Shown: positions 4,624-28,725 of the stretch, piece by piece
Numbering within the stretch: position 1 is the stretch's first letter
Layout: each line of letters begins with the position of its first letter
Origin: a virus
Strand: one strand, 5' to 3'
IMG/VR virus record: IMGVR_UViG_3300048033_001552
Span: 1 to 43,405 of that record
Length of the DNA stretch: 43,405 bases
Program-made: the position numbers and the translations under genes
Notes under the pieces: model-generated
Database searches by the model: none
What the model was told of the DNA's origin: nothing
Seen by the model: only the letters and a program-made list of their open reading frames with translations

Positions 4624-6589
4624 AAGACCATCAAGATTTACTGGATCAAGAGGGGGTAATAGATATGCATCTGTTCCTCAGTATGATTATGGACCAGCGG
4701 GTGCTATTACAACCGACTTTGGACAAATAGGGAAAGATGCTTTAGAACAACAGCAAAAGGCTATGGAAATAGCTGGTAAGGCTAGAGAACGAATTGATAA
4801 ATATGAAAAGGAAGCGCAAGAATCTCAAGACTTTCCATACACAGGAGTAGCTAGTCTTGATGAAGCAACCATGAATATTGCTCAGCAAGCAAAAGAAGGT
4901 TTATTTGCTGCCAAGCAGAAAATAGGTACTATGCAGCCTGACCCTAATAGGCCTGGCAAAAATAAATTATTCACTATAGATGATTTTGCTAGTTATAAAA
5001 ATAATCTTATTAACGGATCAAAAATATACAAAGGCACCCCTGAATTAGTTCAAAAACAATTAGAAGAGTTTTCAAAAAACGAAAACATTTCTGGCATTTC
5101 TTCTGAAGGCATAACAAAAACATTAGGGTCTAGATTAAGTTCTTCAGGAGCATATGATATTGGTATTGATGATAATGGAAATTTTAAAGGATCGTCTAAA
5201 GATGAAAACGGAGAACAACAGGATTTTGATTTCAAAACCATGGCTTTGAATGGGGTTCAAGAAGTCAATAAATTTGATTCTATTTCTGATATTCAGAATT
5301 TCCAAAAGGTTTATGCTAATCAACAAAAAGATTTTGAAATTGATGGAGAGAGTTTTACAGCAGAACAGGTTCTAGGAAATCCTGTTTTATTTACAAAGCA
5401 TGTAGAAGGTCAGGCACCTGCGTTTGAATCTGCAAAATTACAATACTTAGAAAACTTTAAAACAGACGACAACAAAGTTATATCATATCTTTATGATAGG
5501 ATGGGTGTCAAATTAGGCAGTAAGGGGGGTGAGGAAAATAGTATTATTATGAATAGTGATACTGGTAAATTTGAAATATCAGAAACATTAAGAAAAAAAG
5601 CAAAGGATGCGTTTGCTCTTGAACTTGAAGGTGCTTTCGGAACTAAAACTACTAGCAAGGCTCAAATTATGGCTAAAGACAGGCCAGTTAGAGGAAAGAT
5701 AGATACTGATAGAGCTGATGTTGTTATAGGTGAAATGAATCAAACATTCAGCACAGAAGGCAATCAGGCAATTACAGTAAATGAGAAAGGGCAAAGCAAT
5801 AGAGCTGTTCACAGTTTTAAAGATTTAGATTTCTCTCTTCATTTAACAAATAGTATTGGACAAGAAAAAGTAATTGATGCTGCTTCACAATCAATGGATA
5901 GTGAAGAAAATTCTACGTTAGTTTTGTCCAAACAAGCACAACAATTCTTGAATGACAATAAACTAACTGGTAGAAATAGTGATTTGTATGCTGGTGGAAA
6001 TATAAGACCAAAATTTGTTAGTGAAAATACATCTGAAGCATTAAATATTGATCCAGAAACAAATGAAATTGCAATAGAAAAAGACATTAGTAGCGGTGCA
6101 TTAGGAATTCAAGGGTTCTCATTAGGACTTGATCTTAATGAGTCTGACCTTACTGAACTAGGAGCTGTTGGAATGAATGGTAATGCTTTGTCTGGAATTA
6201 CGGGAGTTTCGTTCACATACGAAAGATTTAAAAATAAAGACTTTGTACAAGACGCTAGTAAAACAGATCTTGAAGCGGCTTATCCTAGAAGACCTGTTGG
6301 AATTAGATTTGTTGGAAACACTACCTTGAAAAGTAAATCAGACACTAAAGGTACTTTTGAGTCAGGACAACAATTAGAAAAAGGAACAAAAATTGTTGGT
6401 GAATCAAAAGAAGTAGGTCAAATGATGACCAATATGGTAGAAGATCAACAAATAGCAGCTTACGTCAAAGTTTTAGGTAAAAATCAGCCTGGAATACAAA
6501 AAGCATTTAATGATGCTATCAAGAACAACATGACAAATACTGAAGCTTTTTATAAAGCTATGATAACACTTAAAGCACTCAAAGGTTAA
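4616..6589 (+). CDS. putative internal virion protein (T7 gp15-like position)
   Basis: A 657-residue hydrophilic protein with a basic, Arg/Gly-rich N-terminus, a predicted coiled stretch at about residues 42-70 (EQQQKAMEIAGKARERIDKY) and long mixed alpha/beta segments. There are no cysteines, membrane segments or enzyme motifs. It overlaps the preceding ejection-type gene by 8 bases and shares its last base with the start of the giant lysozyme-domain gene, so the three are probably translated together. Position and size suggest the middle ejection protein, but I do not recognise the family from sequence. Confidence 0.5.
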   Translation: MARRPSRFTGSRGGNRYASVPQYDYGPAGAITTDFGQIGKDALEQQQKAMEIAGKARERIDKYEKEAQESQDFPYTGVASLDEATMNIAQQAKEGLFAAKQKIGTMQPDPNRPGKNKLFTIDDFASYKNNLINGSKIYKGTPELVQKQLEEFSKNENISGISSEGITKTLGSRLSSSGAYDIGIDDNGNFKGSSKDENGEQQDFDFKTMALNGVQEVNKFDSISDIQNFQKVYANQQKDFEIDGESFTAEQVLGNPVLFTKHVEGQAPAFESAKLQYLENFKTDDNKVISYLYDRMGVKLGSKGGEENSIIMNSDTGKFEISETLRKKAKDAFALELEGAFGTKTTSKAQIMAKDRPVRGKIDTDRADVVIGEMNQTFSTEGNQAITVNEKGQSNRAVHSFKDLDFSLHLTNSIGQEKVIDAASQSMDSEENSTLVLSKQAQQFLNDNKLTGRNSDLYAGGNIRPKFVSENTSEALNIDPETNEIAIEKDISSGALGIQGFSLGLDLNESDLTELGAVGMNGNALSGITGVSFTYERFKNKDFVQDASKTDLEAAYPRRPVGIRFVGNTTLKSKSDTKGTFESGQQLEKGTKIVGESKEVGQMMTNMVEDQQIAAYVKVLGKNQPGIQKAFNDAIKNNMTNTEAFYKAMITLKALKG

Positions 6590-12500: not shown

Positions 12501-13422
12501 TCTTTTTGGAAGATTCCAGAACAACAGAAAGGTTGGTATAGCAAACGATTTGAGTGTTTTATCTGATGATTTTGCGTCCTCTACAGACAAAGCAAACGCA
12601 GGAAGAAGATTAGCTTCAGCTGCTATTGAAATAGGTGTTTTCAAAGCATTAGGCCCAATGTTTTCAATGGCTTTTGCTAAAGGAATGGAAGATGAAATAG
12701 CTGGTTTGCTTGGGTGGGATGAAGAAATTGATGAAGCCGCTAAGATATATGAAGCTTATGCGGGTGCATCAGGATATGAATGGATGAAAAAAAACCAGTT
12801 TTCTTTGAATAATTACAAAAGAAATATTTCTAAAGAATTCTCCACATCTTTGTTTGATGGCATGTCGCCTTTACCTGTACCTCAAGTTGCATCAGAGTTA
12901 ATGTATTCTTCACTAAATAAATTATCTTCAGAATTAGGAGGTGATCCAGATTTATTGAATGTTTATAGTCCTTTTGCTAGATCTATATTCGATGAAGAAA
13001 GAGGTCCTGTAACTGATATTGCTATTGCTGATGGTATATTTAATAATGCTGGTCTTTATACTTTGATGGCTCAAGATATGATTGACGTTTATCAATCACT
13101 AAAATATATTCAAACCAATAAGTTTCCTCCTTACATGAACTTAGGCAAGGACAGATATGTGCGTGAATATGGACAAAAAGCAGCAGACGTACTATCTTAC
13201 ACAACCTTACTAAACACCATAGTCCCTTCAGCAGATCTCAACACTTTTAACAGAATACTCAGAGGAAAGATTGAGAGAGATTATTTAACAACAAGACCAA
13301 ACGTAGAGCAGAAAAAAATAGAGCAGAAACCGATAGTTAGAAAGCCAAAACAACAAGCAGATAAGATTTTGAGAAAGCGAAGATTAGATGACGCAATCAA
13401 AAAAACTCTAATCAACGATTGA
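6589..13422 (+). CDS. giant ejection protein with N-terminal lysozyme-like domain (T7 gp16-like)
   Basis: A 2277-residue protein. Residues about 105-265 form a lysozyme/transglycosylase-like domain: IGDSEA with Glu113 as likely catalytic acid, then AVGRYQF (154-160), F.PTNQDILATELLKRRG (180-197) and FSVGLAKEWAAIP (210-222). An acidic, Ser/Glu-rich linker precedes it (about 70-100). The rest is mostly helical, with an Ala/Gly-rich, partly hydrophobic stretch near residues 690-740 that could meet the membrane, and a basic C-terminus. Role by analogy with T7 gp16: local peptidoglycan cutting and a conduit for DNA entry. It is far longer than gp16 (about 1300 residues). Its end overlaps the converging endonuclease gene by 15 bases. 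Confidence 0.7.
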   Translation: MDPYIKDILEKIKQENSEAYESGDFQTLFDSYNKRAPFKVASVATLQGFYNELDSLQVEDEKKNPVNNEPIDSLISGVDSPSESSEEQSPSQSIFEKHKDTTTKILDYIGDSEAVDNDYNSYQGSFIKDTPQYDFQSMSIAGVMDWQKKHSDKAVGRYQFKRKTLQDILEKTGLKDSDQFSPTNQDILATELLKRRGYEKYLNGEGWEDFSVGLAKEWAAIPLLMETNGKLAGESYYQGVGTNQARGNKEKLEKLLREGPVKAYTKYTQNYFERQNDQMMNELFSGITPDLLRNKTEEELEVELKKSFQHLGFNVRQAGQGNIDTVIISHPAIDNEFELNLDDLDTDLEFFDMAYDRPDEQLLVQKAKELKSFMRQASLEANPEVRYNAIFEQGPAPALMAMTNEILLNPKQVDAAKLRIQELTKTLQETPKHLPNPDGPFLLVNEQYQKIKKELSGAQSVLRTADKRKQQLTRTFDNLADKNGGLQELLKDPQFAQLFNQKASVGQINPRELRMPSIRIDGRLSSIETLRNMMLDTDMRGAVMDGKINVEIINDGTAFQRTVLQEPAKLMTKEAEDLMKKNTKASGVAGQVGWVMRSTFAPLAASIVDMTANVGEFIYDVAQWPGDAFDSVNRLIYGDADSETVANAYYDSAGEIYQSKFDSMRAFADKEIRSVVPETSGDLSSSESIAEFFQKGTVAGSESIPYMALFAINPTLGVGITGMATYGETLNQSRQYKSLAQEIMKTDGYVPDDLDEYLNISNWQMRSMALAKGGGEAALTAFFTAKYFKNLSNLAKPGMSSTQFREAAKAYRRGYVSNFMNQVPRAGMNETLEEGLIAVESMAVDELFGMKDYSAGDYFKGVYNAGLQSVFTTTPLATLGSMRQKNAARDLFQNQVFKTMFLRNAENNGLFNEKLAIDTKLGQLNKNKRTNQSLTDQSVALAKEIAIRENRVRTILSEAPIEKLADFVDAEVQIQKTLQNAKEASIEMTANQAREGTGISETDNTLKNVPSDIKTRTQARIKSLVEKQQKIMNDIDPQYQYNASNDVKIYIDSFIGAKSDSEETDEVIMHSTTDIDNVIAGDRLVTNKKAKESGTETLFDTPDQQGGENAVFFTSDPKWDMGNRNGKFYFSKNKMQEQLTPGRSEKEFELLSNGDVILSRENGLMGIEFVEGVDISDEIYSQPAIKGQEVEFSISNEEKIKKIDELDRQNSADYLLKRKAILEKAQKTADKFGVPVVITQHRGNYQMFESAGIESRIKDEVVYPKNATEQDYASFGQMIQDQVRMAPAENDQERKYRNAASILTGFRTAVSNKIPFQEGVETLGDDNHFSRAPQDVQNLIEYLSYVRDGDLNTKERTKLDDFVNKLIDIKENPSAFESIAISQMANELHGSMELLKQVRLGTPVDLENKKINPQTWLESLFTIKGYEFATTNHILSNIFKRSSMKQPLLTVSNNIDASIARNSKEGDLTRQSYNNLDHLSEKVNQKVYFKDENLLERHFMSFLGKYEDTGVEGLSKQESMITQFEAKKMRLQEHINEMAEDSSPKSLKDKQALYQKVYDKIVLNAQDYAAVETRSESFNKEGVEYLRSLFNQDTKKVYDFMKNFHGRVPTKFEKYLPTVYSNVGENKGAGEGFVTDYDATNTNFNRSTGTMKESSAQLGKPAGELNFENYENVLFDLLASGRMQMETMADIFKLKGFYESKGFESFFDLQATKGIGSRGEATDFTRMRDYLLATLQQKVDRVNKVSVNERKKNTVARNFARVGRTIAKIASAKRLSSVSMRPKQYYSATLAQLPNLNYKARTFMTKRILSFTFGQDGRTLSNDRNQQALLSASLTQGRTGKSKIQTEFLDNMAQETSKTILGKGVEKGFKGLDNVSEKLMDAFLAQTDRLAANNTFLAFYMDYEHRNNPETQKLSDKEFFEYAANNINKKAVAYADEQVGRSQTQSDEWNSLGVYGQGNSENKRTLANFLFLFGRFQNNRKVGIANDLSVLSDDFASSTDKANAGRRLASAAIEIGVFKALGPMFSMAFAKGMEDEIAGLLGWDEEIDEAAKIYEAYAGASGYEWMKKNQFSLNNYKRNISKEFSTSLFDGMSPLPVPQVASELMYSSLNKLSSELGGDPDLLNVYSPFARSIFDEERGPVTDIAIADGIFNNAGLYTLMAQDMIDVYQSLKYIQTNKFPPYMNLGKDRYVREYGQKAADVLSYTTLLNTIVPSADLNTFNRILRGKIERDYLTTRPNVEQKKIEQKPIVRKPKQQADKILRKRRLDDAIKKTLIND

Positions 13423-13437
13423 TTGCTTGATTATTTT
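13399..13437. terminator. bidirectional terminator-like hairpin between converging arms
   Basis: A perfect 7-bp inverted repeat (TAATCAA at 13409-13415, TTGATTA at 13427-13433) with an 11-base loop. It is preceded by seven A (T-run on the minus strand) and followed by TTTT on the plus strand. It spans the stop codons of the plus-strand giant gene and the minus-strand endonuclease, where a two-way terminator is expected. The stem is AT-rich and so weak. Confidence 0.5.
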
Positions 13438-13866
13438 AACGACCTCTGCACAATCTTTTTGATTTCTAGGCATAAAAAGGTCAGCTTTGATGTTTTTATT
13501 TATTAAATACCGCTTAAAAAGCTTCCATCGGATAGGAAAAGCTTCGTTTGGATTACCTTTGCATTCAATAATAAATCTAGGGGGGTCCTGAATATCTAAA
13601 AAATCTGGCGTATATTTGATTGGCAATACATTTTTATTGCCTCTATCATGCAAGAATTTCTTAACTCGAGTTTTCTCGTAGCTTGCATTTGTAAAATCAA
13701 AACCCTCAACTAATGAAAATGTTTTACCTTCGTATTCTACTGGTATCTTTGCTTGTTTCAGGAGCTTGTACATATGCATTTCTAATTTGGATGCAAAATT
13801 TAATCCTTGATACTGTACTTTCGTTGATCTCGTTATTTGCTTATTCCGCTTAACTTTTCTTCTCAT
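13408..13866 (-). CDS. endonuclease I-like Holliday junction resolvase (PD-(D/E)XK)
   Basis: A 152-residue protein with the layout of T7 endonuclease I (149 aa): basic N-terminus, FASKLEMHMYKLL with Glu29, then KYTPDF with Asp88 and FIIECKG with Glu101 and Lys103 as the metal-binding and catalytic set. Such enzymes resolve branched DNA before packaging and can degrade host DNA. It is the last gene of the early arm, overlapping the cysteine-cluster gene by 4 bases (ATGA). A general phage PD-(D/E)XK nuclease is the alternative. Confidence 0.75.
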   Translation of the reverse strand: MRRKVKRNKQITRSTKVQYQGLNFASKLEMHMYKLLKQAKIPVEYEGKTFSLVEGFDFTNASYEKTRVKKFLHDRGNKNVLPIKYTPDFLDIQDPPRFIIECKGNPNEAFPIRWKLFKRYLINKNIKADLFMPRNQKDCAEVVKIIKQSIVD

Positions 13867-14680: not shown

Positions 14681-14851
14681 TTATCGATACCAAATTATTG
14701 AAAACCCAAAGAACAAACAAAATATTTGAATCATGTGTTGTTCTTCTTCTTCGTCGTCTTCCATCCAGTCAGGCCATTGATCCATAGTAGTATTCCAGTA
14801 GTTAACTCCTACTGTAACTCCATATAACGGAAAAAATACAACTTCAAACAT
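14681..14851 (-). CDS. small acidic protein with hydrophobic C-terminus
   Basis: A 56-residue frame. The start A is shared with the last base of the metallophosphoesterase stop (TAATG), indicating translational coupling. It encodes an aromatic N-terminal half, a strongly acidic centre (EDDEEEE at about residues 31-37) and a hydrophobic end (IFCLFFGFSIIWYR) that could associate with membrane. I know no family for it. The coupling and the terminator just downstream support a real gene. Confidence 0.5.
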   Translation of the reverse strand: MFEVVFFPLYGVTVGVNYWNTTMDQWPDWMEDDEEEEQHMIQIFCLFFGFSIIWYR

Positions 14852-15996
14852 TAGAATAGGTGTGTGATTCTAGCTATTTGCCCGTGATCCTTTGAATGTA
14901 CAAATCCTTCAACCGCTTTCGGTGAGTGTTGATACCCATTTCTATGGTGCCACGAATCTGTTCCAGATGGAGATCGTAAAGCTTCAACAGTAACTCCAAT
15001 GAAATCTTTAGACATTTTATGGTGTATGTGATGTATGTATACATACCTGTTTTTTGCCTCAGCCCAGTCTTTTTTCGCTTCTTGCGCCATAAGTAAGGGG
15101 AGGTCTTGGGCTTTAGCTCCATCTCCATGTGTTGTGCCAATTAAATTATTGTGATATTTATAATATTTTCTATGAGCAATGCTTACGTCAAACGAAACGT
15201 TTTTACATTTTTTAAACCAAGAACTTATTGAATCTGCTAAGAAAAATCCACTTTGATAATCATGATTAGATGGATTGAACATAAAACGAACATCAGCTAC
15301 TTGCATCAGCTGATCCACAACATCAACATATAATCTTTTTGCTAACAAAAAATTATCGTACCACATTCCATCTGTATCTTGTGGTGTACCAGATGTAGTT
15401 ACTCTTTTTGGGGTGTCGACATGCATAATATCATTACCCGCTATAAAAAGTATTTTATCTATATTAAATCCAGCTGTTTTATCGAGTATTCCTTGTACGC
15501 CGTCTTTAACTCGTTGCACTGCGATTTGACTATTGTATTCTTCTCCTGTTTCGAAACTTCTAGCCAACTTCCCAATATGTACATCAGCAGGATCAATAAC
15601 GAGTAAGCAAGAATCAGGATATCTTTCTCTGACAATAGGTTTATAATTGAACGTATGATTTTTAACATTTTCTATGTGTTCTTTTAACATTTCATCAAAA
15701 GTCGGTCCAGAAGAGCTTGGTTTAAAATTTATACTCCAATGTTCTCCTTTATACCACGCATGTCGCACATCATTTGGATCAATGCCGACAGTCTCGCATT
15801 CTTCTGACAAAGCAGGGTTTTCTTTTTTTATTGCATTTCTATTTAGCCATGATGATAGTGAACGTCTCAGCCTTTCAACTGGGATGTCGATTTTCCATTT
15901 CTCAATCATCATTTTAGCGAGCAAAGTTTTATTAGTAAAGCCCGCCTCATAGTGATCAAGGGCATACTTCTTTTGCTCTTCACTCATTGTTGTCAT
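14851..15996 (-). CDS. metallophosphoesterase with N-terminal helix-turn-helix-like region
   Basis: A 381-residue protein. Residues 1-60 look like a helix-turn-helix. From about 130 it is a calcineurin-like phosphoesterase: DPADVH (Asp138/His140), AGND (186-189), NPSNHD (241-246), THGDG (289-293) and IHHIHH (321-326), the five conserved metal-site blocks in order. The fold includes Mre11/SbcD nucleases and DNA 2'-3' phosphatases. In a replication operon a DNA- or nucleotide-directed substrate is likely but not shown. The start overlaps the 57-residue gene upstream by 17 bases. Confidence 0.75.
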   Translation of the reverse strand: MTTMSEEQKKYALDHYEAGFTNKTLLAKMMIEKWKIDIPVERLRRSLSSWLNRNAIKKENPALSEECETVGIDPNDVRHAWYKGEHWSINFKPSSSGPTFDEMLKEHIENVKNHTFNYKPIVRERYPDSCLLVIDPADVHIGKLARSFETGEEYNSQIAVQRVKDGVQGILDKTAGFNIDKILFIAGNDIMHVDTPKRVTTSGTPQDTDGMWYDNFLLAKRLYVDVVDQLMQVADVRFMFNPSNHDYQSGFFLADSISSWFKKCKNVSFDVSIAHRKYYKYHNNLIGTTHGDGAKAQDLPLLMAQEAKKDWAEAKNRYVYIHHIHHKMSKDFIGVTVEALRSPSGTDSWHHRNGYQHSPKAVEGFVHSKDHGQIARITHLF

Positions 15997-19546: not shown

Positions 19547-20039
19547 TTAAAGTTTTGATTAAAAAGTCCACCTCTTCTGAATCGTTTCTCTCGCATAAAT
19601 TGTAATTTAAATGTCCGAGCATTTCATGATAATGTAAAGTTGGGTTATATGTGTCTAATTGTGTACAATCCATGTTTTTTATAAGATCTGAAATTTCTTT
19701 ATCATTCTTTTCCATATGTGAATTGTATACTTTATCTACATCTCTCCTACCATCTATCAATCTTACTGCATGTAATACTGAAGCATGATCCCATACTTCT
19801 TTTATATCCCATAGAGTTGAGCATCTGCCTATCTCACTCAAAGAAATTTTAATGCCATTGCTGGCTCTTACATGTCTTCGAATAAAATACCAGGCTTCTT
19901 GTCTTGCTTCGACTAAAGGTCTTTTTCTCCTCTTTTTAAACAAGGAGTGAGGGAAGAGCCCGTGCCATTCACAGGCTTTTTCCACTACCGCTTTGACCTT
20001 TTCGTTTCTTTTTCCTATAATATTAGAAAGGGAGGTCAT
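19464..20039 (-). CDS. free-standing DnaA domain IV-like DNA-binding protein
   Basis: A 191-residue protein. Residues about 36-100 resemble the C-terminal DNA-binding domain of DnaA: RPLVEARQEAWYFIRRH, ISLSEIGR, then DHASVLHAVR, close to the DnaA signature DHTTVLHA. There is no AAA+ ATPase domain. The remaining 90 residues are acidic and helical. It could recognise a phage origin or control replication genes. The ORF overlaps the SSB gene upstream by 17 bases and the winged-helix gene downstream by 83. Confidence 0.8.
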   Translation of the reverse strand: MTSLSNIIGKRNEKVKAVVEKACEWHGLFPHSLFKKRRKRPLVEARQEAWYFIRRHVRASNGIKISLSEIGRCSTLWDIKEVWDHASVLHAVRLIDGRRDVDKVYNSHMEKNDKEISDLIKNMDCTQLDTYNPTLHYHEMLGHLNYNLCERNDSEEVDFLIKTLNEKRNNETSNQDSFKDLKMEVVQGAVN

Positions 20040-20352
20040 CTGCTACATCATTTGGTTCTCCTGCAGGTTGAAAATTTGCTTCTTTTTGTGCAGGTTGTGA
20101 CATTTCTCTTGAAGTTTTTGGTGTTAATCCATCCGTCCAATAAGTTGATCCATTGCCTAACCATATAGGAGCTTCATCAGGATTGTTTTTGTCTTTTGAA
20201 AACTTAACAGAAATGTTTTGATTATACTGATCGACTTCGTCTTTGACTGCGATCTCTAAATTTGCCCACTTCTCGCCTTTTTTTGACGTTGAAATTTTGG
20301 CTTGATTTTGACCAAGTTTGGTCAGGTTGATTGAAATGTTTGCTTTGATCAT
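20023..20352 (-). CDS. ssb: single-stranded DNA-binding protein
   Basis: A 109-residue protein with a compact beta-rich N-terminal part (KANISINLTKL, KWANLEIAVKDEVDQYNQNISVKF), a Pro/Gln-rich linker and an acidic tip ending DDLPF. That matches the C-terminal protein-interaction tip of bacterial SSBs (DDDIPF). It would coat single strands during replication and recruit partners. The leader is very AT-rich and follows a hairpin at 20388-20409. Short for SSB, but the tail and setting are convincing. Confidence 0.75.
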   Translation of the reverse strand: MIKANISINLTKLGQNQAKISTSKKGEKWANLEIAVKDEVDQYNQNISVKFSKDKNNPDEAPIWLGNGSTYWTDGLTPKTSREMSQPAQKEANFQPAGEPNDVADDLPF

Positions 20353-22415: not shown

Positions 22416-22465
22416 GCTGAGTTTTTCAGAGTGTAATATGTCTCTCATATATCAGATTATTTTAT

Positions 22466-22497
22466 GTAAATATAATTAATGTTATTCACAATTACAA
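22466..22497 (-). promoter_or_regulatory. candidate promoter for the replication block
   Basis: On the minus strand: TTG (22495-22497), a 20-base spacer, then TATATTTA (22467-22474), a 7-of-8 match to TAnnTTTG. Spacing fits Flavobacterium promoters. It would give a leader of about 55 bases to the ATG at 22403. Confidence 0.4.
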
Positions 22498-22545
22498 GTT
22501 AATAAGCGTTAATTTTTATAAATACGCCACATTTTTTTTATTTTA

Positions 22546-22595
22546 CCCTGCGTCGCCCTACGTCGCCAAAGTTTACCCTGCGTCGCCCTACGTCG
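22546..22595. repeat. phased GC-rich decamers, candidate iterons
   Basis: Four copies of CCCT(G/A)CGTCG at 22546, 22556, 22576 and 22586, two adjacent pairs separated by a 10-base AT-rich spacer. All copies therefore fall on the same helical face. The array is the most GC-rich stretch of a very AT-rich gap between the accessory cassette and the replication genes. Candidate origin iterons or an operator. Confidence 0.6.
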
Positions 22596-22603
22596 CTCTC
22601 TAT

Positions 22604-22613
22604 GATAGTGAAC
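22604..22613 (-). repeat. GATAGTGAAC motif copy next to decamer array
   Basis: One copy of a 10-base motif also found exactly at 15854, 24384, 27754 and 27939, and with one change at 26988. Here it overlaps the last base of a perfect -7 element on the minus strand, so it would lie at the transcription start, a good operator position. Confidence 0.4.
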
Positions 22614-26828: not shown

Positions 26829-26975
26829 TCAAAACGCGAATAGCGCATTAAATATGCATCCTATATGGTTATCGGTTAATAGATGTACTAACCATTCCAT
26901 TATTACAGTATATAATCCAATGAATACAAGTCCAACATGTATACAAAAAGCAATTTTAGTTTCTATATTTTTCAT
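26829..26975 (-). CDS. small membrane protein
   Basis: A 48-residue frame coupled by ATGA to the 173-residue gene upstream. Residues about 8-30 (AFCIHVGLVFIGLYTVIMEWLV) form a membrane segment, and the C-terminus is also hydrophobic. No family is known. The coupling favours a real gene. Confidence 0.5.
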   Translation of the reverse strand: MKNIETKIAFCIHVGLVFIGLYTVIMEWLVHLLTDNHIGCIFNALFAF

Positions 26976-27493
26976 GATATACCGTATGATAGTGAATCAA
27001 ATTCTTCTACTATTTCTTGAGATATGTTGATAGGAGAATCGAACATCTGTGTTTGTAACCCTCGCATATCAAGAGTACGTTCATCTGATGATTGTGTGTA
27101 ATCTGCAGACTGCTCTTCGATGATAGTGATAGGATTGTCATCGTTACTGAACTCTATCTTAGCTTGTTTTGATACAACCTCTCGTTTGAGATTTTTTTGT
27201 AACCATTCTGGTACTTGAAACTGAAACCGTTTGATATGTACTTCTGGTTCTTTTGTAACAGGATTGTATACCTGAACTTCTTCTGGATTAACCTCTCTGA
27301 ACATTAGTTGTTGACGCTTGTTCTTCTTGGTGTACCACTCGAAAGGTAACCAACAGTCTTTGAACTTGACGTATGTTGATGAACCAGTTACTTCATCATA
27401 ATGATAACCGAAGACTTTAGCAATGCGTATTGATTGGCTACGTTCTCTTTCTATTCTTTTAACGACTGTACAAGTAATTGTAGTGAATTTCAT
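26972..27493 (-). CDS. uncharacterised first gene of the early arm
   Basis: A 173-residue protein beginning MKFTTITCTVVKRI. The frame is open to 27667, but the extra 58 residues would cross the structured segment at 27519-27680 and read as low-quality Cys/Tyr-rich sequence, so the ATG at 27493 is chosen. The protein is charged, with an acidic, Ser/Glu-rich C-terminal third, and no recognised domain. As the first leftward gene it is a candidate for immediate-early expression and host takeover. Confidence 0.6.
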   Translation of the reverse strand: MKFTTITCTVVKRIERERSQSIRIAKVFGYHYDEVTGSSTYVKFKDCWLPFEWYTKKNKRQQLMFREVNPEEVQVYNPVTKEPEVHIKRFQFQVPEWLQKNLKREVVSKQAKIEFSNDDNPITIIEEQSADYTQSSDERTLDMRGLQTQMFDSPINISQEIVEEFDSLSYGIS

Positions 27494-27518
27494 AATAATA
27501 TAAATTAAATTAGATAGA

Positions 27519-27680
27519 TGTGTGACGATCACACAACATTTGCAAGCGAAGTAAAAGTACAGCGTAGCTGTATCAAAACATCTGTTGCAACACCGAGCGA
27601 AGCGAGCTTGTATAGTGTTGTTGCTGTATGTTTTGACAAAACTATAGTTGCAGCTTTTAGATTGCAATAATGTTGTGTGT
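27519..27680 (-). ncRNA. multi-helix structured leader or non-coding RNA
   Basis: Nested complementary arms: P1 27530-27545 with 27662-27679 (2-base bulge); a 6-bp hairpin TACAGC-gta-GCTGTA at 27558-27572; P3 TCAAAACAT with ATGTTTTGA; P4 GCAACAC with GTGTTGTTGC (3-base bulge); and a separate 7-bp hairpin at 27519-27535 that shares bases with P1. The layout resembles a branched RNA just upstream of the first early gene. The strand is assumed from that gene. It is unlike any RNA class I know. Confidence 0.45.
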
Positions 27681-27753
27681 GTGGGACAAGTGATAGGGTC
27701 AATTTATATTTCATTATAAAATAAATAAAGAGTGAACGTAATCGACGATAGGA

Positions 27754-27763
27754 GATAGTGAAC
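27754..27763 (-). repeat. GATAGTGAAC motif copy
   Basis: An exact copy in the divergence region. On the minus strand it follows TATATTTC (7 of 8 to the -7 consensus) by three bases, the same arrangement as at 22604. Confidence 0.4.
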
Positions 27764-27917
27764 GGGGAAATATAAAGTGTGACAGTGAAGTATCGATCAT
27801 CAACGAAGTTGTGAGAGATACGAACGATAGCACGTTGTTTTGATCTCGAGCGACAGGATGGAGCGCCACAAACGGAGCCACGCGGAGTTCATAGTAAGTA
27901 GACAACGAACATATAAT

Positions 27918-27925
27918 CAAATATA
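27918..27925 (-). promoter_or_regulatory. candidate -7 element for the early arm
   Basis: A perfect TATATTTG on the minus strand. Nineteen bases further upstream lies GTTC of a GATAGTGAAC copy, so that motif may act as the -33 element or an activator site here. Confidence 0.35.
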
Positions 27926-27938
27926 CCGTTAAGATGTT

Positions 27939-27948
27939 GATAGTGAAC
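27939..27948 (-). repeat. GATAGTGAAC motif copy
   Basis: An exact copy about 14 bases upstream of the minus-strand TATATTTG at 27918-27925. Confidence 0.4.
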
Positions 27949-28232
27949 ATAATCAATGTAAAGCAAACACCAAACAATTATTTAATGGGGTGGTATATAG
28001 CTTGCTGTGATAGCCTCCCCTCTCTATATACGCAATTTCTACTGCAAAATGGTAGCTTAAAACGGCAAAAGTGTTGTATAACGGCAGCTATGGTAACAAA
28101 ACGCTAAAAAATTACGGAATACAAAAGCAAAAGGGGTAGGGGGTGGGGTGTAAGAAAGTGTTTTTCTATAATGTACGACTAACCTGAGATGTAAGAGAAC
28201 CTCAACACTCTACATTTCTGCAGCCCTAAAAC

Positions 28233-28303
28233 ATGTGGCAGTTTTTTAAAGCTCTATCAAGTAATTAAATAGGTGTGTTAGGCTATTTTTTTTTGTGCCA
28301 CAT
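28233..28303. repeat. inverted repeat ATGTGGCA / TGCCACAT
   Basis: Perfect 8-bp arms at 28233-28240 and 28296-28303, 55 bases apart. The right arm ends 6 bases before a perfect -7 element, so the pair could be a looped operator. GCCACATTTTT also occurs in the spacer near 22527. Confidence 0.35.
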
Positions 28304-28309
28304 TTTTCT

Positions 28310-28317
28310 TATCTTTG
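28310..28317 (+). promoter_or_regulatory. candidate -7 element for the rightward arm
   Basis: A perfect TATCTTTG. The nearest TTTG upstream is only 14 bases away, shorter than usual. It is the best plus-strand promoter signal before the first rightward gene at 28423. Confidence 0.35.
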
Positions 28318-28339
28318 TTATAGATTTTTTTTCATTAGT

Positions 28340-28409
28340 AACCCAGGCTTATATGAAGTTTTTTTCATTTGTTTATTCTTTGTTTGTTTTAGTGAAGTAA
28401 GTCTGGGTT
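28340..28409. repeat. long-armed inverted repeat in the 28423 leader
   Basis: AACCCAGGCTTA (28340-28351) pairs with TAAGTCTGGGTT (28398-28409) at 11 of 12 positions across a T-rich 46-base loop. It sits between the candidate promoter and the ATG at 28423. Possible leader hairpin or operator. Confidence 0.4.
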
Positions 28410-28422
28410 TTAATTCTATAAT

Positions 28423-28725
28423 ATGCCAAATAAGAAAGATCATCAAGGGAGAACGTTAGATCAGGAGTATCGTCTTTTAAAAAAAATGGAAGGTTCTGAC
28501 AGAAATGTTATTAATTATCTACTAACAGACCGTTATTTTGCCGTCAGAAACATGATAGATGTAAGAAACAAGGCCGTTAACATAATATTAAAGAATTTGG
28601 GTAATATTATTGAAACGGATGAGTCGTTTAAGGTTTCTAAAAAGATTATGGATCAAATCAAAGAGATAGACCGCTTAGTTTTTGAGTTTAAACATGTGGC
28701 TGACGCTAAAGATCATATTTTATAA
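28423..28725 (+). CDS. first rightward gene, small helical protein
   Basis: A 100-residue, highly charged, all-helical protein (NKKDHQGRTLDQEYRLLKKM; YFAVRNMIDVRNKAVNIILKNLG) with no recognised domain. It forms a one-gene unit: an inverted-repeat leader precedes it and a strong hairpin terminator begins one base after its stop. Such isolated, strongly bounded genes are often early or regulatory. Function unknown. Confidence 0.55.
   Translation: MPNKKDHQGRTLDQEYRLLKKMEGSDRNVINYLLTDRYFAVRNMIDVRNKAVNIILKNLGNIIETDESFKVSKKIMDQIKEIDRLVFEFKHVADAKDHIL

Follow-up and report, generated by a model that had tools for sequence, protein, structure and literature searches.

What is the long self-complementary stretch that lies directly before the first leftward gene of this viral genome, and does it act as RNA or as DNA? 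The window, that is, the whole stretch of DNA analyzed, is a 43,405-base record of an uncultured virus. Its primase/helicase is closest to the counterpart in Cellulophaga phage phi10:1 (43.9% identity), its gene order resembles that of Flavobacterium phage elemoC, and its gene starts have an AT-rich upstream context without Shine-Dalgarno sequences, which together point to a member of the Bacteroidota as the likely host. Genes for GroEL/GroES are also present. A divergent intergenic region (27494-28422) containing the hairpin separates a leftward gene of 173 aa (26972-27493, minus strand) from the rightward genes, which begin at 28423. The 173-aa gene, conserved in relatives, is the first of a leftward operon that forms the replication module, encoding a primase/helicase, a helicase loader, Erf, exonucleases, MazG, and a resolvase. 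Its leading position suggests that the gene is early; the protein matched no known family in family searches, and its predicted structure (pLDDT 47) gave no usable model.

The preliminary description had proposed a non-random fold at 27519-27680 (162 nt), right before the leftward operon, and this was borne out on both strands. Folding against dinucleotide-shuffled controls with RNA energies gave -54.9 kcal/mol on the plus strand (z = -4.26) and -47.4 kcal/mol on the minus strand (z = -4.53), far better than the shuffles, 0 of 200 of which were as low in either case; with DNA energies the plus strand gave z = -4.43. Among 1604 windows of 162 nt taken from both strands of the whole record the segment ranks third by energy, and when the 24 most stable windows are ordered by z, its two strands take second and third place. 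The boundaries of this segment were picked by eye, so that these z values are somewhat flattered, an objection that is removed because the palindrome scans were unbiased and used no gene positions. These boundaries also proved too short, the segment being the core of a giant imperfect palindrome of 214 nt (27497-27710, minus strand) that nearly reaches the start codon. Its symmetric self-complement alignment comprises about 100 columns per arm around a 2-nt center, with 74 of 99 columns Watson-Crick, and its 3′ arm stops 3 nt short of the ATG at 27493 (minus strand). The corresponding minus-strand leader (27494-27720) folds with a z of -5.66. The branched architecture first described did not hold up for RNA, for which both the minimum-energy and the centroid folds are a single long, unbranched hairpin with interruptions; the small self-contained side hairpins (e.g. 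ACAGC-GTA-GCTGT) were recovered with DNA energies only and are absent from the RNA folds. A small dyad, TGTGTGA-CGA-TCACACA, can be read directly within the 3′ arm (27519-27535, no strand assigned), and GAGCGAAGCGAGC is located close to the hairpin apex (27595-27607, plus strand). A search for tRNA and tmRNA genes found none.

Folded stretches were also noted elsewhere in the window. The segment 25813-25974 (minus strand), within a peptidase gene, has a fold z of about -5, equal in strength to the leader. The 200 nt upstream of a 109-aa gene (20023-20352, minus strand), whose product ends in DDLPF, a C-terminal tail typical of single-strand binding proteins, fold with a z of -3.1. The leader at 22449-22612 (minus strand) opens with TTCACTATCAT, after which come GC-rich units resembling GCGACGCAGGG, and a similar leader occurs in two related records, G001 (at about 3300) and G003 (at about 60900).

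The area had been called gene-free, which is not literally the case, as a 61-aa ORF (27529-27714, minus strand) overlaps it. Were this ORF to encode a protein, the fold would be incidental, and its ATG does have the AT-rich upstream context of other starts in the phage. Its codon score of -0.09 per codon, however, lies below that of every small gene listed and within the range of spurious ORFs, it has neither relatives in viral contigs nor a Pfam match, and the related records hold no alignable counterpart. The ORF is therefore unlikely to be a real feature, and a protein-coding explanation of the locus is hardly credible. A conserved protein frame, which the preliminary description had named as an argument against a structural element, was found nowhere over the segment.

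Comparison with relatives decides the case. The 173-aa protein matched three other viral-contig records, with identities to the window protein of 64% in G001 and G003 and 54% in G002. G001 and G003 represent one species (over 99.9% identical) with the same hairpin sequence, and the comparison accordingly covers four virus records and three independent sequences (window, G001/G003, and G002). From 27922 rightward, G001 and the window can be aligned at about 79%, whereas the stretch adjoining the ATG has no alignable sequence between the window and any relative. In that stretch G001 has an imperfect palindrome of 166 nt, with 61 of 73 columns Watson-Crick, that is separated from the ATG by 1 nt, and G002 has one of 185 nt (68 of 77 columns) that runs directly up to the ATG. 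The palindrome scores of the window, G001, and G002 are 117, 99, and 109, compared with shuffled maxima of 77, 75, and 79; the centers are tight in all three (2, 2, and 4 nt), and the helices are interrupted, the longest unbroken run being 9-12 bp. As RNA, the leader hairpin folds with z values of -4.1 in G001 (L036) and -4.0 in G002 (L037), and fixed 200-nt leaders on the sense strand gave -4.3, -3.1, and -4.1 for the three sequences. In a scan of the records that made no use of gene positions the leader was the top long palindrome in 4 of 4 records, both raw and composition-corrected, with shuffle z values of 8.0, 5.7, 6.5, and 6.7; for the seven controls, which were phage genomes or large stretches of them, the long-palindrome z was at most 5.3. 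Except for one 16-nt match between the window and G002 (CGCTCGCTTCGCTCG type, E = 0.004), the leaders share no notable sequence. GAGCGAAGCGAG is found near the window hairpin apex and twice in the corresponding region of L037. Since two other lineages carry hairpins of similar size and unrelated sequence at the same place, the comparison suggests that the feature kept is fold and position, not sequence.

Several further searches were made. No relatives were found in the bacterial genomes searched, and a conserved noncoding 17-mer used as query returned the same two records and one unrelated phage. A transposon-like hairpin (MITE) was rejected, the hairpin being single-copy in the record and without a match in phage records. 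GAGCGAAGCGAGC was considered as a widespread repeat, and its occurrence as a 16-mer in 32 viral contigs is about the chance level by a rough estimate. Cellulophaga phage phi10:1 also has a long palindrome in its divergent region, but this apparent parallel was dismissed because AT-richness is sufficient to explain it (fold z of -1.4).

The contigs of related phages (starts of L053 and L055-L059) end close to the hairpin locus; for the G002 species, L057 begins inside the hairpin and L058 about 25 nt outside it. These positions suggest that assembly or amplification breaks off here, or that the molecule physically ends. A fragile site would also break contigs in or beside the hairpin, as seen in the G002 species, and this would fit a process, such as template switching or hairpin-primed copying, that repeatedly makes inverted duplications in a fast-evolving, unconstrained leader. 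Sequences unrelated between lineages and tight centers agree with a mutational by-product of this kind, which is nevertheless improbable given that three lineages share the same boundary at the ATG and a similar spacing to TTCACTATC, that the palindrome is the strongest in every record, and that the arms carry many substitutions, so that they are not fresh duplications, and have kept their pairing nonetheless.

Against 0.4 expected, the window contains 8 copies of the nonamer TTCACTATC, all on the minus strand, and over the four related records the strand count of this motif is 19:0 for minus. One copy (27754-27762, minus strand) is located about 43 nt upstream of the hairpin and a second (27939-27947, minus strand) in the block conserved with G001 (27922 onward). 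The gap between TTCACTATC and the 5′ arm of the hairpin is 43, 37, and 41 nt in the window, G001, and G002, respectively. The hairpin-proximal copy of G001 is the orthologue of the outer copy of the window at 27939; compared with G001, about 185 nt are additional in the window, which also contains a second copy, at 27754. Motif, about 40 nt, hairpin, and start codon thus follow one another in this order in three lineages, with the sequence in between replaced. Sites of GATAGTGAA (8 on the plus strand, 0 on the minus strand, 0.4 expected; 19:0 over the four records) are at 5897, 6919, 15854, 22604, 24384, 26988, 27754, and 27939; some of the intragenic copies fall at orthologous coding positions, and the intergenic ones resemble operator or promoter elements.

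The abutment of the hairpin to the start codon (0-3 nt) speaks for a role in translation. The computed cost of opening the start region (-20 to +15) with the leader intact is 10.3, 12.9, and 20.6 kcal/mol in the three sequences, and falls to 6.2, 4.8, and 2.3 kcal/mol when the leader is cut at the loop; most other gene starts in the window have computed opening costs of 2-7 kcal/mol. In these calculations the difference between intact and cut leaders is what a translation lock would show. Long dsRNA is a substrate of RNase III, which makes little demand on sequence, needs a target of at least about 22 nt, processes phage RNAs (lambda, T7), and can expose start sites (PMC5371410). The lock profile, together with these enzyme properties and a likeness to the lambda N and T7 leaders, leads us to propose that the hairpin is a cis-acting, structure-only 5′ leader that would lock translation of the first gene until opened by cleavage or unfolding. 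We hold this reading tentatively, at a probability of about 0.45. Leftward transcription would start near the TTCACTATC block, and the mRNA would begin with an imperfect double-stranded hairpin of 165-215 nt whose 3′ arm reaches the start codon of the first gene. The intact hairpin would close the ribosome landing site, and cleavage by a double-strand-specific RNase, for which host RNase III is the natural candidate, would free the start region and turn the gene on; alternatively, a protein may melt or bind the hairpin to the same effect. An enzyme that reads the helix rather than the sequence would allow the fold to persist while the sequence is fully replaced. A regulatory leader was among the options listed in the preliminary description, and it is this option, without the branching, that matches our proposal.

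RNase III processing of the lambda N leader affects N translation, and the T7 leader before gene 0.3 is an RNase III site, one of several such early sites in T7. The hairpin shares with such processed phage leaders a long double-stranded stem just upstream of a presumed early gene and, by computation, a start that is occluded when the stem is intact and open when it is cut. With regard to transcription of the full stem, TTCACTATC stands at a near-constant distance, and the leftward promoters are candidates, one of them inside the stem: the best leftward -7-like match is at 27637-27644, and a transcript starting there would lose most of the hairpin (z of -1.0). The lambda N leader (fold z of -3.7 with the same tool) likewise precedes the first gene of a leftward early operon and contains a long hairpin. 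About 20 nt lie between that hairpin and the AUG, compared with 0-3 nt in the window and its relatives, there is no sequence relation, and neither a nut-like site nor an N-like antiterminator was recognized in the window. Processing of the lambda N leader by RNase III is known, as cited in PMC5371410 (its ref. 19), whereas for the window hairpin we infer it. The T7 gene 0.3 leader is similar in that a stem directly precedes the first early gene, and the T7 stretch 761-980 before this gene ranked third by z (4.4) in the same palindrome scan; the T7 stem is, however, much shorter, with a fold z of only -2.4.

The leader lock would act through the minus-strand transcript, yet the plus strand folds as well as or better than the minus strand in all three sequences (-60.5, -52.4, and -61.4 kcal/mol). 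This stability would be in keeping with an independent structured RNA on the plus strand, for example a small RNA transcribed rightward. There is no convincing plus-strand promoter just left of the hairpin, Rfam covariance models gave no match to the hairpin at the gathering score or at E values up to 2, and the excess of wobble pairs on the plus strand follows from composition, as the apparent 16:6 bias between G.T and A.C mismatches does, with no strand signal left. A plus-strand RNA is consequently quite improbable.

Significant folding of both strands without a strand signal is also what an element acting at the DNA level would show, and this is the main rival to the leader lock, although an unlikely one. 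An extruded cruciform or single-strand hairpin could serve as a single-strand initiation site, as an origin at the divergence point, or as a hairpin-nuclease site starting recombination-dependent replication. The tight centers (2, 2, and 4 nt) would suit such an element, as would a leftward operon encoding primase/helicase, helicase loader, Erf, exonucleases, and resolvase. Cumulative GC skew reaches its minimum at the site, but gene direction switches there too, which confounds the signal. The single-strand origins (sso) of rolling-circle plasmids and ICEBs1 are noncoding stem-loops in which structure can outweigh sequence (PMC4595007), and SbcCD processes long DNA palindromes, among them an interrupted one of 246 bp in E. 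coli (PMC3315005). Sequence drift would also be compatible with an origin or nuclease site that depends on structure (PMC4595007, PMC3315005). In contrast to the window hairpin, sso elements serve the ssDNA intermediates of rolling-circle elements and are not tied to a start codon, and the genes scanned in the window included neither a rolling-circle initiator nor a Rep/HUH protein. The E. coli SbcCD substrate is of similar length, and the phage has a "DNA repair exonuclease" match; the window palindrome differs in being imperfect, natural, and fixed in position, and its processing is conjecture. Two nuclease-type genes, at 14851-15996 and 13408-13866 (minus strand), match phrog_704 (the DNA repair exonuclease, regarded as SbcD-like) and a Holliday junction resolvase, and either product could act on DNA palindromes. 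A DNA-level role leaves unexplained why, in three lineages, the arm stops 0-3 nt short of the start codon. A more specific form, a long shot in our judgment, would be a structure-only DNA element fixed between motif and start codon and serving as a programmed origin or as the target of a hairpin nuclease, perhaps the SbcD-like enzyme of the phage itself; it would couple the start of replication to expression of the first early gene.

The rightward operon also has a structured leader. TATCTTTG, the -7-like element of a Bacteroidota-type rightward promoter (28310-28317, plus strand), is conserved in L036 and L055, and is followed by a hairpin (28340-28409, plus strand) with arms at 28340-28351 and 28398-28409. 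Compensatory changes in relatives support this hairpin: among the window, L055, and L036, 6 of 12 pairs are changed on both sides, compared with 1.8 in shuffles, a count that leans toward structure because the arms were aligned by hand. The CCAGG/CYTGG core is kept, and sliding the partner arm abolishes all support. The start of the first rightward gene in the window is strongly occluded, with a computed opening cost of 20.8 kcal/mol. With a structured leader on each of the two divergent operons, the locus is consistent with early control of a common style. An inverted pair, ATGTGGCA and TGCCACAT (28229-28240 and 28296-28307), flanks the rightward promoter region and is likely an operator; L036 and L037 have copies of TGCCACAT in the corresponding region as well.

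Neither sequence searches nor covariation tests pick up an element that keeps its fold and position but exchanges its entire sequence. This hairpin locus is one of that kind, and it came to light when the architecture of orthologous gene starts was compared. If the RNA lock is true, early-gene control of the lambda N type becomes testable in phages of Bacteroidota; if instead the role is at the DNA level, the hairpin would mark how these phages start replication.
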